Assembly: GCF_009363055.1 (NCBI RefSeq)
Contig: NZ_CP045292.1
Span: forward strand, 1,240,001 to 1,304,000
Direction: 5' to 3'
Origin: Flavobacterium haoranii
GTDB taxonomy: Bacteria > Bacteroidota > Bacteroidia > Flavobacteriales > Flavobacteriaceae
Length of the DNA: 64,000 nt
Shown here: piece by piece, positions 19,352 to 62,498 of the stretch
Layout of the letters: the number at the start of each line of letters is the position of its first letter
How positions within the stretch are numbered: the first letter of the stretch is position 1
Position numbers and translations under genes: made by a program
Notes under the pieces: model-generated
What the model was told of the DNA's origin: nothing
Databases searched by the model: none
What the model saw: only the letters and a program-made list of their open reading frames with translations

Positions 19352-20284
19352 ATGCCGAAAATTTCCATTGTCATACCGCTTTACAATAAAGGTTCTATCG
19401 TAAGAAAAACACTTGAATCTGTCATTAATCAAACTTTTTCAGATTTTGAGATCATCATTGCTAATGACGGATCAACTGACGATTCGGTTGCTATTGTTGA
19501 GAGTTTTAAAGATAAAAGGATTCTTTTGTTTCACCAAGAAAACAAAGGTGCAGCAGCGGCTCGAAATTTTGGAATTGAAAAAGCAAGTGGCGAGTTAATA
19601 GCTTTTTTAGATGCTGATGACATTTGGAAAAACAATCATTTGGAAGAAATATTTCAACTTTACAATGATTTTCCTTGTTGTGGCATGTATTGCAGTCGGT
19701 ACGCCATGAAAATTTCCAACAACAAAATAATTCCTATTGATTATTTACCGGAACTCAAAAATGATTTTAGAGGTGTTATCCCCGATTATTTTAGAGCGAG
19801 TTTGCATTATAGAGTTGGACTAACTTCTGCGGTTAGCATTCCTAAATCTATTCTAGAAAAGTATAATTTTAACACTGAAGTTTCAAGTGGACAAGACACA
19901 GAGCTTTTTACAAAAATCGCAATTCATTTTCCTGTTGCAATTACCGATAAGGTTACGATGCAATATGATTTTTCAACCAATAATCATTTGTCTAAAACTC
20001 CAATTACCAAAAAGAAACTTTTTGACTTTAGTCAGTTTGCTAAATTTGAAAGCAAAAATCCAAGTTTAAAATCCTTTTTAGATTTATACAGAATAGAATA
20101 TGCTTTAAATTTTAGAGTTTTAGGTGCGATTAAAAAATCGAATGCGTATTTAAAAGATGTAACAACAGAAATTCCGTTTAAAACTCGATTACTATTAAAA
20201 CTTCCACCTTTTATTTTACGTAGTTTATTAAAATTAAAACATTGGTTACGAAGTAAAGGAATAGATTTTACTGTTTATCATTGA
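19352..20284 (+). CDS. Family 2 glycosyltransferase
   Basis: A 310-residue GT-A fold glycosyltransferase. It opens with PKISIVIPLYNKGSIVRKTL, then IIIANDGSTDDS (UDP-sugar binding) and LIAFLDADDIW (the DxD metal site), all within the first 95 residues. No membrane segment is clear until a basic, weakly hydrophobic C-terminal stretch that may bind the membrane. The ATG directly follows the stop of the preceding glycosyltransferase (TAAATG), so the two are coupled. It converges on the FdtA-like gene, overlapping it by seven bases. The donor and acceptor sugars cannot be told from sequence. Confidence 0.88.
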   Translation: MPKISIVIPLYNKGSIVRKTLESVINQTFSDFEIIIANDGSTDDSVAIVESFKDKRILLFHQENKGAAAARNFGIEKASGELIAFLDADDIWKNNHLEEIFQLYNDFPCCGMYCSRYAMKISNNKIIPIDYLPELKNDFRGVIPDYFRASLHYRVGLTSAVSIPKSILEKYNFNTEVSSGQDTELFTKIAIHFPVAITDKVTMQYDFSTNNHLSKTPITKKKLFDFSQFAKFESKNPSLKSFLDLYRIEYALNFRVLGAIKKSNAYLKDVTTEIPFKTRLLLKLPPFILRSLLKLKHWLRSKGIDFTVYH

Positions 20285-24124: not shown

Positions 24125-25125
24125 TCTGTTTTACAACCTAACTTTATATATTGATTTTTGAAATTAAAATGCCATTTTTTCCATTCAGAAGTTAGATTTC
24201 CAGTTTTGTCAGCGTTATTTAATATTTGTTCAATTTCAGTTTCTAAAATGTCTTTTGGTAAACTCAAAGCAACATCAAATTTATTATTAAACCAAGCTTC
24301 ATTTAAAAATTTGTTGACTTCAAAAATATCAAGATTTATTCCTTCATATTTTTTATGAGTTAAAGTTGCCGCAGTTGAAAATCCGGTTTGAAAATACTCT
24401 TTTTTTGAATGTGCAATTTTACTATTTGAATTTGATTTTAAATATTCTAACGCATTTTGAATTTGCAAACCTTCATTAACTTTTCCGTTGTTTTTTTTCC
24501 AAAGTGAAACAAAATAATCTTTTTTAAAAATAGAGCCTGCAACCGAATAAATGTGATAATAGGCTAAATTTCTTTCTGTTGTGTATAAACCTAAAAACTT
24601 CATTAAATCGTTAAATCTAAAACCATAGGTTTTAAATATTTTTTTGTACAAAAACGGATTTGAAGTAAATAATTTAGGCTTTATAATATTATAAAGTGTT
24701 CTACTTTCAATAATATTTGAAGAAGTTAATTTAGAATTTCCTAACCAAAAAAGCTTCAAGAAAACTAAATTATCTTTAATTGTTTCTTTTTCTAATACTA
24801 CCAAGTCTAAATCTTCTGTAAACCAAAAATCATCTTCAATTAACAAAAAATAATTACTTAATTTTTCTGCCGATTTAACCCAAAAATCTATTGGAATTTC
24901 TCCGTTATAACTTTCGGTTAAATTAGAACTCTTCTTATCGTATAAATCTGATTTAATAATTTCAACTTGAGGATATTTTTCTTGAATTTTGTCTAAATAT
25001 TGCTGTGGAGTTCCATCATCTAACACAACAATTCTTTCAAATGAATTTTTAGCATGTTTTTCAATACTAAACAAACATCTATCGAGATAATATGGACGAT
25101 TAAACGATTTAATTAAGATGTCCAT
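24121..25125 (-). CDS. Glycosyltransferase-like protein (GT-A fold)
   Basis: A 334-residue protein that begins MDILIKSFNRPYYLDRCLFS and then IVVLDDGTPQQYLDKI, a nucleotide-sugar binding start as in family 2 enzymes. An acidic motif, LIEDDFWF, sits near residue 97, at the position of the usual DxD metal site. The rest is unlike common GT2 enzymes and I cannot name the family or the sugar. It overlaps the aminotransferase end by 13 bases and the flippase start by four bases, so it is firmly part of this operon. Confidence 0.72.
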   Translation of the reverse strand: MDILIKSFNRPYYLDRCLFSIEKHAKNSFERIVVLDDGTPQQYLDKIQEKYPQVEIIKSDLYDKKSSNLTESYNGEIPIDFWVKSAEKLSNYFLLIEDDFWFTEDLDLVVLEKETIKDNLVFLKLFWLGNSKLTSSNIIESRTLYNIIKPKLFTSNPFLYKKIFKTYGFRFNDLMKFLGLYTTERNLAYYHIYSVAGSIFKKDYFVSLWKKNNGKVNEGLQIQNALEYLKSNSNSKIAHSKKEYFQTGFSTAATLTHKKYEGINLDIFEVNKFLNEAWFNNKFDVALSLPKDILETEIEQILNNADKTGNLTSEWKKWHFNFKNQYIKLGCKTE

Positions 25126-26261
25126 CCGTTCAAAACTTTAATAATTTTTGAAACCTCATCATCAGTCAAAACTCCATTTAATGGCAAACTTAACACTTCA
25201 TTGTGAATTTTCTCAGTTATGGGAAAAGACAAATGATTCCAATCTTTCATTGCTCTTTGCTTATGAGGCGGAATTGGATAATGAATCATAGTTTCAATTC
25301 CTTTCGAACTTAAATAACTTTTTAATTCGTCTCTATTTTCTGTTCGAATAACAAATAAATGAAATACATGATTATGAGTTCCGTCCCAAAATGGTAAAAC
25401 AATTTTTGGATTGTTTATTTCGTTTAAAAAGCGTTTTGCTATATTTCTTCTTGTGTTGTTTTCTTTTATTAAAAACGGAAGTTTTATATTTAAAAATGCG
25501 GCTTGTAATTCATCTAATCTTGAATTTACACCTTGCAATTCATTATAATATTTCTTTTCAGAACCATAATTTCTAAGCTTTTTAATGGTTTCTGCTAATT
25601 GCAAATCATTTGTAACTACTGCACCACCATCGCCTAAACAACCTAAATTTTTTCCAGGATAAAAGCTAAACGCTTGAGTTCTCGAATCCGCTCGAACTGA
25701 CAATTCATTAGTTGAAAGATTTTTATCTGTAAACTGTGACTGCGACTGAAAACTATAACTAGCTCCATGAGCTTGAGCAGCATCTTCCACTATTAATAAA
25801 TTGTGTTTGAGAGCAATTTCAATTATTATATCCATTTCACAAATTTGTCCGTACAAATGAACTGGTAAAATTGCCTTAGTATTAGAAGTTATTTTAGCTT
25901 CAATTAAATCGGGATTGATGTTATAAGTTTCTAATTTTGGTTCAACTAAAACAGGAATTAAATCGGCTTGTAAAACCGCTAAAATAGAAGCGATATAAGT
26001 ATTTGCTGGAACAATAACCTCATCTCCTTTTTGAAGATATCCTAATTCGATGTAAGCTTTAAATATTAAAACTAAAGCATCAAGTCCGTTACCAACACCA
26101 ACACAATATTTTGAATTGCAAAAACTTGCAAAATCAGCTTCGAATTGTTGTACTTCATTACCCAAAATATACCAACCTTTATCTAAAAATTGCTGAAATT
26201 TTAATTGAAAGTCGGTCTCAAATGGCTTATTAATTTTATGTAAATCGAGAAACTTTATCAT
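25113..26261 (-). CDS. fdtB: DegT/DnrJ/EryC1 aminotransferase, probable dTDP-3-keto-sugar aminotransferase (FdtB-like)
   Basis: A 382-residue PLP enzyme that would aminate the 3-keto sugar made by FdtA. Motifs are GVGNGLDAL (phosphate binding), VPANTYIAS, EDAAQAHGA with Asp160, and FSFYPGKNLG with the PLP lysine at 204, then GDGGAV. Between AHGASY and AFSF, relatives have about a dozen residues (GKR.GNLGDAA type). Here there are about 27 (positions 170-196), rich in Ser, Gln, Thr and Asn, and the DNA underneath matches dispersed intergenic repeats. The frame stays open. The insertion lies directly before the active-site lysine, so activity is uncertain. Confidence 0.85.
   Translation of the reverse strand: MIKFLDLHKINKPFETDFQLKFQQFLDKGWYILGNEVQQFEADFASFCNSKYCVGVGNGLDALVLIFKAYIELGYLQKGDEVIVPANTYIASILAVLQADLIPVLVEPKLETYNINPDLIEAKITSNTKAILPVHLYGQICEMDIIIEIALKHNLLIVEDAAQAHGASYSFQSQSQFTDKNLSTNELSVRADSRTQAFSFYPGKNLGCLGDGGAVVTNDLQLAETIKKLRNYGSEKKYYNELQGVNSRLDELQAAFLNIKLPFLIKENNTRRNIAKRFLNEINNPKIVLPFWDGTHNHVFHLFVIRTENRDELKSYLSSKGIETMIHYPIPPHKQRAMKDWNHLSFPITEKIHNEVLSLPLNGVLTDDEVSKIIKVLNGWTS
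25674..25756. repeat. Dispersed repeat inserted in frame in the aminotransferase gene
   Basis: Plus-strand bases 25678-25703 read GTTCTCGAATCCGCTCGAAC then TGACAA, and 25736-25750 read GTGACTGCGACTGAA. The spacer copies at 51650 and 51897 share TTCTCGA, CTCGAACTGACGACTGCGA and the CTGAA-type end. The inserted block is about 81 bases, a multiple of three, and translates without a stop on the coding strand. Confidence 0.7.
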
Positions 26262-45996: not shown

Positions 45997-48189
45997 CTAC
46001 TCCGTCAACTTTTTTATGTTTTCTATTAGTTTTTTCAAAACTACATTATTAGGCACAACTACAGTAATTTTCCCATTAAAGATACCCGCATCGCCACTTA
46101 ATGCTAAACTTTGAATGTTTACATGCATTTGACTCGAAATAACTTTTGTTAGTTCATTTGCTAAACCAAGTGTATCTAATCCTGTAATTTCTAAAATGGC
46201 TTTAAACTCTTCTTGTGTTGAATCTATCCATTTAGCAGGAATTACACGATATGCATAATTTGATCGCATACTTATAGCATTTGGACAATCTTTCCGGTGC
46301 ACTTTTATACCTTCGTTAATTGTTATAAAACCAAAAACATCATCACCAGGAATTGGGTTGCAACAATTAGAAAGTTTATAATCTAACCTTTCTTGCTCGT
46401 TGCCAAATACCAATAAATCGTATTTTTTACTAATTTCATTTTTATTAATCTGCTCAGTAGGCTGAGTGTTTGGCGCCCTTTTAATGGTTTTCTTAAAGAA
46501 ATTAACCAGCGTGTTATTCTTTTGAGCTGCAAAATCTTTTAACTGCTGATTTTCAATTACTCCTACTCCTACTCTATAAAACAAATCTAAACTGGTTTGC
46601 AATTTAAAATAGTTAACCAATTCGTTTACTACTGTTTCATTTAAAGTAATTTTTAAATGACGAAGCTTTCTGGTGAGTAGTTCTTTTCCTTCTTCGGCTA
46701 TTTTTTTGGTATTTTCGTTTAGAACATTTTTAATTTTGGTTTTAGCTCTCGAAGTTGTAACATAATCGAGCCATTGCATAGTAGGTTTTTGATGAGGAGA
46801 AGTTATTACTTCTACCTGATCGCCACTGTTTAATACGTGATTTAACTGAACTAATTTTCCATTTACTCGAGTTCCTCTTGTTCTAATTCCAATTTCTGAG
46901 TGAATGGCAAAGGCAAAATCTAATGAAGTAGCTCCTTTTGGTAACGATTTAATATCTCCTTTTGGTGTAAAGACATAAATTTCTTTAGAATAAAGATTAA
47001 GTTTAAAATCTTCAACAAAATCTACTGCACTAGAAGTTTGATTTTCTAGAGCCTCTTTCAATTGATTTAACCAAACCTCTAAGGTGTGTTCTTCGGTGTC
47101 GCCGTTTTTGTATTTATAGTGAGCCGCGTATCCTTTTTCAGCAATTTCGTCCATTCGTTCGCTTCGCACCTGAATTTCAACCCAGCGTCCCTTTGGTCCC
47201 ATAACCGTTATGTGCAATGCTTCGTAACCAGTAGATTTGGGCGAAGAAATCCAGTCTCTTAAACGACTAGGACTAGGACGATAATGATCCGTTACAACTG
47301 AATAAATTTTCCAAGCTAAGAATTTCTCGTCATGCTGATTAGATTTATAAATAATACGAAGTGCAAACTTGTCGTAAACCTCTTCAAAAGTGACGTTTTG
47401 CGCGCGCATTTTTCTTCGTATCGAATAAATCGATTTTGGACGTCCTTTTATAATAAAATCTACTCCTTCATCTTGTAAAGATTTACTCAAAACATCTGAA
47501 ATTGATTTTATGTAAGCATCTTGCTCTTGCTTGGTTTCTTTTATTTTACTTACAATTTGATTATAAACTTCTGGCTCAGTATACTTTAAACCTAAATCTT
47601 CTAATTGTGTTTTAATGTTATAAAGTCCTAATCTGTGTGCAAGTGGCGCATAGATGTATAATGTTTCCGAAGCAATCTTGGCTTGCTTATAATCGGCCAT
47701 ACTTTCCATAGTTTGCATATTATGCAATCTATCGGCTATTTTTATTAAAATTACACGAACATCTTCATTTAGTGTAAGCAACATTTTTCTAAAATTCTCT
47801 GCTTGTAATGAAATATCTTGTTCGGTTTTAACTTTGGCAATTTTAGTTAATCCTTCAACAATTTTAGCAATTTTAGGATTAAACATTTTTTCTAAGTCTT
47901 CAACAGTGATATCTGTATCTTCAACTACATCATGCATTAAAGCTGCCGCAATAGAAGTAGCACCTAAACCAATTTCTGAAGCTACAATTTTAGCCACAGC
48001 AATAGGATGAAAAATATAAGCTTCACCCGATTTTCTTCTTTGGTCTTTATGTGCTTCAACTGCAACATCAAAAGCTTTACGAATTAATTTTTTATCTTCA
48101 TCTGTTAAAGATTGATAACTAATTCGTAGCAACTCTTTATATTCTTGTGCAATTGCTTTATTTTCTGCTTCTAAGTCGATTTCCGTCAT
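45997..48189 (-). CDS. Bifunctional (p)ppGpp synthetase/hydrolase (RelA/SpoT family)
   Basis: Makes or degrades the stringent-response alarmone. The 730-residue protein has the hydrolase HD domain (His61, His-Asp at 86-87 in MHDVVED, Glu-Asp at 90-91) and the synthetase domain (GRPKSIYSIRRKM, FALRIIYKS, STGYEALHITV). A TGS domain follows (VFTPKGDIKSLPKGATSLDF), then a helical domain, a Cys-rich segment (NCCNPIPGDDV) and a C-terminal ACT/RAM domain. Both active sites look intact, which is consistent with a long Rel/SpoT-type bifunctional protein. The upstream spacer has a TAACTTTG element. Confidence 0.94.
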   Translation of the reverse strand: MTEIDLEAENKAIAQEYKELLRISYQSLTDEDKKLIRKAFDVAVEAHKDQRRKSGEAYIFHPIAVAKIVASEIGLGATSIAAALMHDVVEDTDITVEDLEKMFNPKIAKIVEGLTKIAKVKTEQDISLQAENFRKMLLTLNEDVRVILIKIADRLHNMQTMESMADYKQAKIASETLYIYAPLAHRLGLYNIKTQLEDLGLKYTEPEVYNQIVSKIKETKQEQDAYIKSISDVLSKSLQDEGVDFIIKGRPKSIYSIRRKMRAQNVTFEEVYDKFALRIIYKSNQHDEKFLAWKIYSVVTDHYRPSPSRLRDWISSPKSTGYEALHITVMGPKGRWVEIQVRSERMDEIAEKGYAAHYKYKNGDTEEHTLEVWLNQLKEALENQTSSAVDFVEDFKLNLYSKEIYVFTPKGDIKSLPKGATSLDFAFAIHSEIGIRTRGTRVNGKLVQLNHVLNSGDQVEVITSPHQKPTMQWLDYVTTSRAKTKIKNVLNENTKKIAEEGKELLTRKLRHLKITLNETVVNELVNYFKLQTSLDLFYRVGVGVIENQQLKDFAAQKNNTLVNFFKKTIKRAPNTQPTEQINKNEISKKYDLLVFGNEQERLDYKLSNCCNPIPGDDVFGFITINEGIKVHRKDCPNAISMRSNYAYRVIPAKWIDSTQEEFKAILEITGLDTLGLANELTKVISSQMHVNIQSLALSGDAGIFNGKITVVVPNNVVLKKLIENIKKLTE

Positions 48190-48363: not shown

Positions 48364-48393
48364 TTGAATTCTCGAGGCGCTTTATTATCTTCG
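48364..48393 (+). promoter_or_regulatory. Promoter for the DUF349 gene
   Basis: TTG at 48364-48366 is followed after 19 bases by TATCTTCG at 48386-48393, one base off TAnnTTTG, 31 bases before the ATG. Spacing is as expected for a Bacteroidetes promoter. Confidence 0.45.
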
Positions 48394-51649: not shown

Positions 51650-51710
51650 GTTCTCGATACTATTTCTTCGAAATCACTCGAACTGACGACTGCGACAGAA
51701 GACTATAGCT
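51650..51710. repeat. Dispersed repeat, copy 1 (TTCTCGA...CGAACTGACGACTGCGAC)
   Basis: Reads GTTCTCGATACTATTTCTTC, then GAAATCACTCGAACTGACGA, then CTGCGACAGAAG. It is nearly the same as the copy at 51897 (differences at a few bases) and shares the core with the insert in the aminotransferase at 25678. Confidence 0.65.
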
Positions 51711-51840: not shown

Positions 51841-51884
51841 AATCGAGATTCAACGAAGTTAAACAAGTTCAGTATGACAAATTA
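51841..51884. repeat. Dispersed repeat (GAAGTTAAACAAGTTCAG type), copy 1
   Basis: AATCGAGATTCAACGAAG then TTAAACAAGTTCAGTATGACA. The copy at 52832 differs at only a few bases, and both resemble the CTTCGACAAGCTCAG repeat at 14553 with an insertion. Confidence 0.6.
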
Positions 51885-51895
51885 GGAATTGTTAG

Positions 51896-51955
51896 TTCTC
51901 GATACAATTTCTTCGAAATCACTTGAACTGACGACTGCGACTGCAACTGAACACT
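51896..51955. repeat. Dispersed repeat, copy 2 (TTCTCGA...TGAACTGACGACTGCGAC)
   Basis: TTCTCGATACAATTTCTTCG, then AAATCACTTGAACTGACGAC, then TGCGACTGCAACTGAACAC. It has the same layout as 51650, in the same orientation, with a longer GACTGCAACTGAA end that matches the end of the coding insert. Confidence 0.65.
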
Positions 51956-52831: not shown

Positions 52832-52873
52832 AAATCGAAGATTCAAAGAAGTTAAACAAGTTCAGCATGACAA
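52832..52873. repeat. Dispersed repeat (GAAGTTAAACAAGTTCAG type), copy 2
   Basis: AAATCGAAGATTCAAAGAAG then TTAAACAAGTTCAGCATGAC and AAAT. It is close to the copy at 51841 and in the same orientation. Confidence 0.6.
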
Positions 52874-52882
52874 ATACAATTG

Positions 52883-62470: not shown

Positions 62471-62498
62471 AACATCTCGACTCCGCTCGATGTAACAA
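62471..62498. repeat. Dispersed repeat (ACATCTCGACTCCGCTCGATGTAACA)
   Basis: In the argH-lrp spacer, ACATCTCGACTCCGCTCGAT then GTAACA. Outer ACATC and GATGT are complementary and an inner TCGA...TCGA pair is present. It is a common Bacteroidetes spacer unit from memory and may act as a weak hairpin terminator here. Confidence 0.5.

Follow-up and report, generated by a model that had tools for sequence, protein, structure and literature searches.

Spacer-like repeats recur in a variable loop beside the predicted PLP lysine of FdtB-type aminotransferases in Flavobacterium

Introduction

Rickettsia palindromic elements (RPE), described by Ogata and Claverie, are reported to sit, in frame, inside genes whose proteins are probably functional. 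The Flavobacterium repeat studied here is likewise palindromic and in frame within genes, and we liken it to RPE by mode and not by membership. RPE-1 is longer and belongs to obligate intracellular hosts, whereas in Flavobacterium we find a 26-nt element together with non-palindromic repeats.

A second described group comprises the REPs of the CGTC superfamily. Parts of the article by Di Nocera et al. (2013; PMC3733652) describe them as located mostly in spacers and in some cases in frame within genes, with a stem of 8-9 bp, A-T in the first two pairs, a loop of 4-5 and a CCA-like tail. In these parts TGTC is stated as a variant of the tag, and Bacteroidetes is one of the five phyla for which CGTC repeats are reported. 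RPE-4 and RPE-6 are identified there with CGTC REPs, and different REPs are placed at about one recB site in two Xanthomonas species. The parts compared describe no loop into which a variety of unrelated repeat families has been taken up, and the string "flavobact" is absent from the main text of that article. The enterobacterial spacer repeats RU-1/2/3, whose reading frames occur in annotated genes, are in the compared parts of Delihas (2007; PMC2759123) MITE-like elements of 103-168 bp and single gene cases, not a recurrent filling of one loop.

Intragenic insertion of REPs or RPE is already known, and what appears to be new is that several repeat families recurrently fill the same loops. 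Among open-licence papers in PMC we found no report of such recurrent filling, no mention of the loop peptide described below and no report of intragenic repeat insertion in Flavobacterium, consistent with the original prediction for this locus, which knew of none in Flavobacteriaceae.

Results

The FdtB/QdtB-Type Enzyme of the Window Carries a Long Loop

The window, i.e., the whole stretch of 64,000 nucleotides of Flavobacterium haoranii DNA that was analyzed, contains at 25113..26261 on the minus strand an open reading frame of 382 aa that matches the DegT/DnrJ/EryC1/StrS family (E 5.7e-95). Its closest solved structures are 7n63, WlaRG (5u1z) and QdtB (3frk), 3-aminotransferases of the FdtB/QdtB/WlaRG type with the same enzyme family and fold, to which it aligns with TM-scores of 0.87-0.89 by query length. 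Both the family fold and the conserved lysine of SFYPGKN are present. By profile and structure matches the protein is an FdtB/QdtB-type sugar aminotransferase, as had been predicted, with a putative 3-keto sugar specificity. The conserved lysine, K204 by alignment (25650..25652, minus strand), would be the PLP lysine by homology; we take this role from family knowledge, the equivalent lysine being the K184A mutant site in the title of 5u21. In the neighborhood we find a gene of polysaccharide flippase type as well as a glycosyltransferase match that is weak and does not reach its cut-off.

Between AQAHG and FSFYPGKN lies a hypervariable loop of 31 residues (residues 167-197, ASYSFQSQSQFTDKNLSTNELSVRADSRTQA; 25671..25763, minus strand), which is 15 residues longer than that of 7n63 and lacks its GNLGD-type motif. 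The segment is an open, in-frame and stop-free part of the FdtB reading frame and adjoins the lysine that by homology would bind PLP; both properties agree with the original prediction. That prediction had set about 27 codons against about a dozen in relatives. The loop is indeed longer, but the native length is 16: among 63 non-Flavobacterium loci within the best 80 of a scan with conserved FdtB peptides, 62 were parsed, and the loop measured 16 residues in 46/62, 17 in 10/62 and 18-27 in 6/62. Since no close relative has kept the native loop, a clean insert of measurable length is not definable. Outside Flavobacterium, the FdtB loop of Gelidibacter japonicus (L075) has 25 residues and a tandem-like look, and that of a Prevotella sp. 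(L132) has 27; loop filling may therefore reach beyond the genus. At second and third FdtB sites, the alignment shows apparent additions in one sequence each, P0014 (near LPNLSLRGTKQSHNH) and P0079 (near ALSPETSGWNH).

An AlphaFold2 model of the protein, built with 57 sequences, reached a mean pLDDT of 85.3 and a pTM of 0.87. Only at residues 170-191, inside the loop, do three or more consecutive residues fall below a pLDDT of 50, and the poor alignability of the loop may contribute to this low confidence. A sequencing artefact in the loop was ruled out, the same loop being present in protein clusters P0001 (7 members) and P0002 (3 members).

Two Repeat Families of the Own Genome Meet in the Loop

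We searched the 83-nt loop segment against its own genome (G000; 2.87 Mb, one contig) and obtained 10 other places at E<=0.01. These fall into two groups: positions 1-35 of the segment correspond to a CAGTCG-type repeat and positions 50-81 to a palindrome, while positions 36-49 had no match elsewhere in G000 at this threshold. The first family (TTTTCAGTCGCAG type) occupies 25724..25756 (minus strand) and recurs with 91% identity at 2249491-2249523 and with 90% at 1428249-1428278 of G000. The second is a TGTC-tagged palindromic repeat (REP) at 25677..25702 (minus strand), read LSVRADSRT, whose 23-nt core (25679-25701) differs from the 23-mer GTCANTTCGAGCGNAGTCGAGAA by one mismatch. Allowing up to three mismatches, this 23-mer has 48 copies in G000 and the reversed pattern none, and the claim that a dispersed spacer repeat lies within the loop was thus borne out by a near-perfect copy.

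The words on which that claim had been based match the spacers near 51650 and 51897 in part. TTCTCGA occurs at 25679 and in both spacers (51651, 51896), as well as at 48369; CTCGAACTGAC occurs only at 25691 and in one spacer (51677); the full GACTGCGACTGAA is confined to 25738, the spacers carrying its first nine letters (51688, 51933). These spacer copies (51650..51696 and 51895..51941, both minus strand and 96% identical) do belong to the repeat family, but represent a long form with an inner hairpin. The closest relatives of the FdtB copy are of the short form and lie, for example, at 46291, 1419490 and 1484690 of G000. A further short-form copy with three mismatches is found at 62474..62496 (minus strand), outside ORFs of >=120 aa (L376). 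A different spacer repeat of 37 nt, with AACAAGTTCAGTATGACA, is present at 51846-51882 and 52839-52875 of the window (95% identical) and resembles, on the opposite strand, the CHAELVSAS-type element treated below.

The 48 copies begin with TGTC (42), CGTC (3), TGTT (2) or TTGC (1) and measure 26-27 nt, so that both the end motif (CGTC/TGTC/CCTC) and the size of a high-copy palindrome (20-40 nt) agree with the CGTC superfamily. For the 43 distinct sequences we compared a stem drawn by hand from the consensus with shuffles. Doubly changed cells numbered 34 against 8.0 +/- 2.4 in shuffles (0/500 as high), 92.4% of the stem cells were paired against 80.2 (0/500), and the covariation score was 0.333, compared with at most 0.074 once the stem partner was slid; pairs with a double change (3 vs 2.1; 61/500) and further pair types (10 vs 9.1; 167/500) were not above shuffles. 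Stem covariation is supported on the first three of these five measures, and since the stem covaries across copies, the repeat is a palindromic element. Its stem has 5 bp, a 2-nt bulge and 2 bp with a loop of 6, the first pair being A-T in 29/43 sequences and the second variable. The repeat resembles the CGTC REPs in its tagged short palindrome, spacer bias and in-frame gene copies, whereas its stem and tail are unlike those of the four CGTC families as described in the compared text of PMC3733652; because stem, loop and tail deviate, we class it as CGTC-like and outside the four families. Among the 48 copies, opposite-strand pairs within ~60 nt occur at 19454/19531, 414176/414232, 568075/568115 and 2287428/2287484, given here as a plain tally.

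Copies of the Palindrome Are in Frame Within Unrelated Genes

The original prediction had proposed a genome search for repeats inside ORFs. Fifteen of the 48 copies lie within ORFs of >=120 aa, three of them near the ORF start and doubtful (L182, L369 and L372, which we read as MurB, BatD and HAD). The other 12 are in frame inside 11 genes, namely those for PrmC (two copies), a YggS-like protein, 2-oxoacid dehydrogenase E2, methylmalonyl-CoA mutase, RmlD, DHFR, FdtB, NamZ, dihydroorotate dehydrogenase (PyrD), Kdo transferase and a primase/VapE-like ORF. Eight of these hosts were placed by Pfam, FdtB by its family match and PrmC by the names of homologues; the primase/VapE-like ORF is presumably such by reading.

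In-frame presence within unrelated, apparently functional genes, a feature of RPE, thus applies to this repeat, with the DHFR gene possibly broken. The DHFR ORF (L187; copy at ~2611391-2611413 of G000:C1) already stops at residue 138, and the residues that usually form its C-terminus are encoded in another frame; hence a broken or misread gene is possible. In both the mutase (residue 21) and NamZ (residue 46) the copy precedes the Pfam domain. At the repeat site, DHFR is 6 residues longer than the solved structure 8f09, and dihydroorotate dehydrogenase is 3 residues longer than 1f76. The suggested parallel to Rickettsia holds in the sense that here, too, a dispersed spacer repeat is read in frame and free of stops.

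The 12 copies are read as S[S/N]GVE (5), RAxSR (3), SARxD (3) and STPLEM (1), i.e., in four frames and on both strands, which argues that DNA rather than peptide is the recruited unit. On inspection, one of the six frames of the repeat consensus always contains TGA.

The Same FdtB Loop Holds Different Repeats Across the Genus

FdtB matches were found in 345 of 398 genomes. From the best-scoring 90 genes, including that of the window, 83 loops could be parsed (the others being L153, L170, L211, L215, L217, L230 and L241). By 15 repeat classes, which were defined by eye after the loops had been seen, 57 loops carry one of the classes, 25 none, and 1 is short. The prediction of one repeat in one enzyme was accordingly right about the repeat, but not about a single event, as the phenomenon recurs in the genus with several repeat families and proteins.

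Palindrome-type loops make up 13 of the 57 classed loops. This count bears on the idea that the repeat is kept for a role as DNA or RNA, such as a hairpin acting in mRNA decay or binding gyrase or another protein, with the peptide as a tolerated by-product. REPs elsewhere have such roles, according to parts of PMC3733652, and the outer stem is retained in the FdtB copy. However, palindromes account for just 13 of all 83 loops, most others being tandem-type or unclassed, and the folding energy is ordinary: folded alone as DNA, the FdtB copy reaches -1.7 kcal/mol (z 0.45), no better than shuffles. We regard a DNA or RNA role as highly improbable compared with an origin of the loops from spacer repeats.

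On a tree of the 83 proteins without their loops, at least 44 changes of the loop label (17 states) are required, against a mean of 54.8 after shuffling, indicating that the loop class is partly inherited. The tree is weak, with 15/80 inner branches starred and 36 open, and the starred branches alone force fewer changes. The class of the window loop forms one clade of three genomes (G000, G122 and G134; SH-aLRT 99). Among the 83 genomes the peptide SVRA[D/Q]SR is confined to these three, and it is also found in clusters P0001, P0002 and P0004. The 23-mer has 48 copies in G000, 55 in G134, 59 in G302 and 17 in G122 (79% complete), compared with 0-8 in ten more distant chosen species, whose FdtB loops differ; the reversed control gave 0-1 across genomes, which equals the count of G292. 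The peptide is found in genomes with an amplified repeat, although the near relative G302, with its 59 copies, has a short FdtB loop without it. The original prediction would have been given up for a native loop had homologues from repeat-free genomes carried the peptide; among the 83 genomes it was found in one repeat-rich clade.

Loops Differ Between Close Relatives, and PrmC and RmlD Sites Behave Alike

Among 202 sequences, pairs with 90-95% identity outside the loop have equal loop lengths in 31% of 341 cases, and pairs with 95% to <100% identity in 94% of 158, such pairs not being independent of each other. P0021 and P0073 are 98.3% identical outside the loop and have unrelated loops, while P0031 and P0083 (94% identical) differ by an in-frame gain of 10 residues inside the loop.

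Homologues of PrmC and RmlD (120 each) were parsed at site 1 and site 2 in 100 and 78 cases for PrmC and in 21 and 119 cases for RmlD. Peptides derived from palindromes alternate with tandem-type or other peptides at the two PrmC sites and RmlD site 2; at RmlD site 1 the alternation is among several palindrome-derived peptides and others. At PrmC site 1, P0127 and P0134, which are not close relatives, differ by 8 residues, with NVTSSGVEMS for IN after a common SQKSKVKSQK. In a PrmC model both sites lie, at moderate confidence, outside helices of >=4 and strands of >=3 residues; the model shows no disorder at the two sites (block means ~71-86), its low stretch being at residues 202-228.

Such patterns could also arise if ready-made FdtB alleles were mainly recombined between lineages, with spacer insertion being rare and old. 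Polysaccharide loci are often exchanged, and one pair, chosen from 225 with >=85% identity and different loops, shows what recombination would leave, namely divergence concentrated in a short tract that stops at the loop: L216 and L247 differ at 6/42 4-fold sites far upstream, at 7/12 over the 40 codons that precede the loop, and at 0/18 and 1/35 after it. On the other hand, all three loops of the window type in the genome set belong to a clade in which that very repeat is amplified, and the 10-residue gain of P0031/P0083 as well as the PrmC pair P0127/P0134 look like direct insertions. Allele recombination is hence unlikely to be the main cause of the distribution, and it complements spacer insertion rather than excluding it.

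Loop DNA Matches Spacer DNA

Local BLAST was run against a genus sample of 864 kb, consisting of the FdtB-masked window and 80 kb from each of ten genomes. Matches at E<=1e-3 were obtained for 18/83 loops, 26/1304 segments of the same length from the same genes and 4/830 shuffles; at E<=1e-5 for 5/83, 0/1304 and 0/830, respectively. The window's own loop (L141) had no match in this sample at 1e-3. Loop matches lie outside ORFs in 30 of 32 cases, though ORFs cover 86%, while control matches lie inside ORFs in 24 of 26.

The loop might instead be a native hypervariable segment under diversifying selection for substrate or partner specificity, its repeat likeness being compositional only. Strong variation in length and sequence between conserved flanks and the position near the active site would fit. 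Such a segment would not explain why loop DNA matches the genus sample about 10 times as often as the remaining stretches of these genes do, nor why one and the same DNA element is translated in four frames across different genes; the low model confidence at the loop and the like behavior of the PrmC and RmlD loops speak against it as well. We consider this reading extremely unlikely, and a spacer origin accounts better for the matches.

Own-genome searches were added for five loops (G000, G240, G312, G164 and G237). At E<=0.01 we found 60 further places that match the G240 loop; one of them, in a spacer (L304), does so over 62 nt at 87% and spans both repeat parts. Of 29 other places retrieved, one lies in an ORF, which we take to be AroA-like by reading. 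The CHAELVSAS-type element of G240 folds with an 8 bp stem and a 5-nt loop, and dense arrays of palindromes of this type were seen in two short regions with many copies (G240:C1 909831-912299 and 920848-921847). With 40 candidates scored per genome and FdtBs included, the G312 loop gave at E<=1 at least 57 matches in G312, 64 in G340, 48 in G394 and 61 in G281. The LEAGS-type loop of G164 has 7 other places at E<=0.01 and 8 at E<=0.1; four of the 8 are in ORFs, one of these probably being a chance 17-mer and another a PrmC-like gene (L402) with an antisense reading of the LEAGS unit. For G237, 3 other places were found at E<=0.01 and 6 at E<=0.1. Repeat-like segments were also seen in ORFs of other Flavobacterium genomes: L343 and L406 are presumably glycosyltransferase-like and MetH-like by reading, and L413 is an ORF without assignment.

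Many loops consist of short-period tandem sequences, which would be expected if strand slippage had expanded the native loop locally (NNQQSTINNQQS, LEAGSWKLE etc.) and the simple repeats of spacers were independent. Slippage cannot, however, yield the palindrome-derived peptides SVRADSR, CHAELVSAS and VTLSEVE or the 62-nt composite spacer match of G240, and the antisense reading of LEAGS in L402 is not easily explained by it. Slippage as the general source of the loops is very unlikely, and we continue to favor the spacer origin.

Discussion

We conclude with considerable confidence that spacer DNA has been turned into protein in the FdtB loop, and that this is part of a general process in Flavobacterium. 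In the enzyme of the window, a TGTC-tagged palindromic REP, preceded by a CAGTCG-type repeat, sits in the loop before the putative PLP lysine. It is part of an open reading frame and is probably translated. On the one tree available, the repeat-bearing loop arose in or before the common ancestor of G000, G122 and G134. Across Flavobacterium, such repeats would copy themselves, or be copied, into new places, and arrivals within genes would survive if they are in frame, free of stops and in a tolerant loop, as suggested by the spacer bias, the in-frame survival and the loop position. The conserved residues around the loop suggest that FdtB stays active.

Loops would then turn over by new insertions, by short-tandem slippage and by recombination between lineages within the gene. 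We observed a single pair that looks like an insertion and a single recombination-like tract; slippage and the rates of turnover are presumed.

The repeats might be copied by template switching, or a Y1/HUH (RAYT-like) enzyme might transpose them as single strands. G000 has two Y1_Tnp (PF01797) matches. The first is an intact ORF of 149 aa (L201, G000:C1:727493-727834) with no repeat copy within its 3.3-kb locus, situated between two genes that, on our reading, look like R and M of a type I restriction system. The second (L202/L367, G000:C1:2141854-2142580) has an internal TAA and scores 23.2 bits (cut-off 23); a repeat copy 378 bp away is the sole hint of a transposase link, and from these two matches no transposase tied to the repeat was established. 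An active DNA-level process might even write many unrelated spacer repeats, palindromic as well as tandem, into the same few core-enzyme loops, which would then be replaceable cassettes drawn from the current repeats of the own genome; we propose this tentatively, as a possibility that falls somewhat short of an even chance.

An origin of protein from noncoding DNA is usually inferred from single old events, while here one loop requires, on a weak tree, at least 44 class changes. Several genomes keep donor-like repeats and some relatives differ by one addition. It becomes possible to measure the rate, the choice of donor, the selection for frame and the functional cost. The findings also carry a warning: where such loops differ in length, the difference can be a repeat, and in Flavobacterium REP-like elements are not limited strictly to extragenic DNA.
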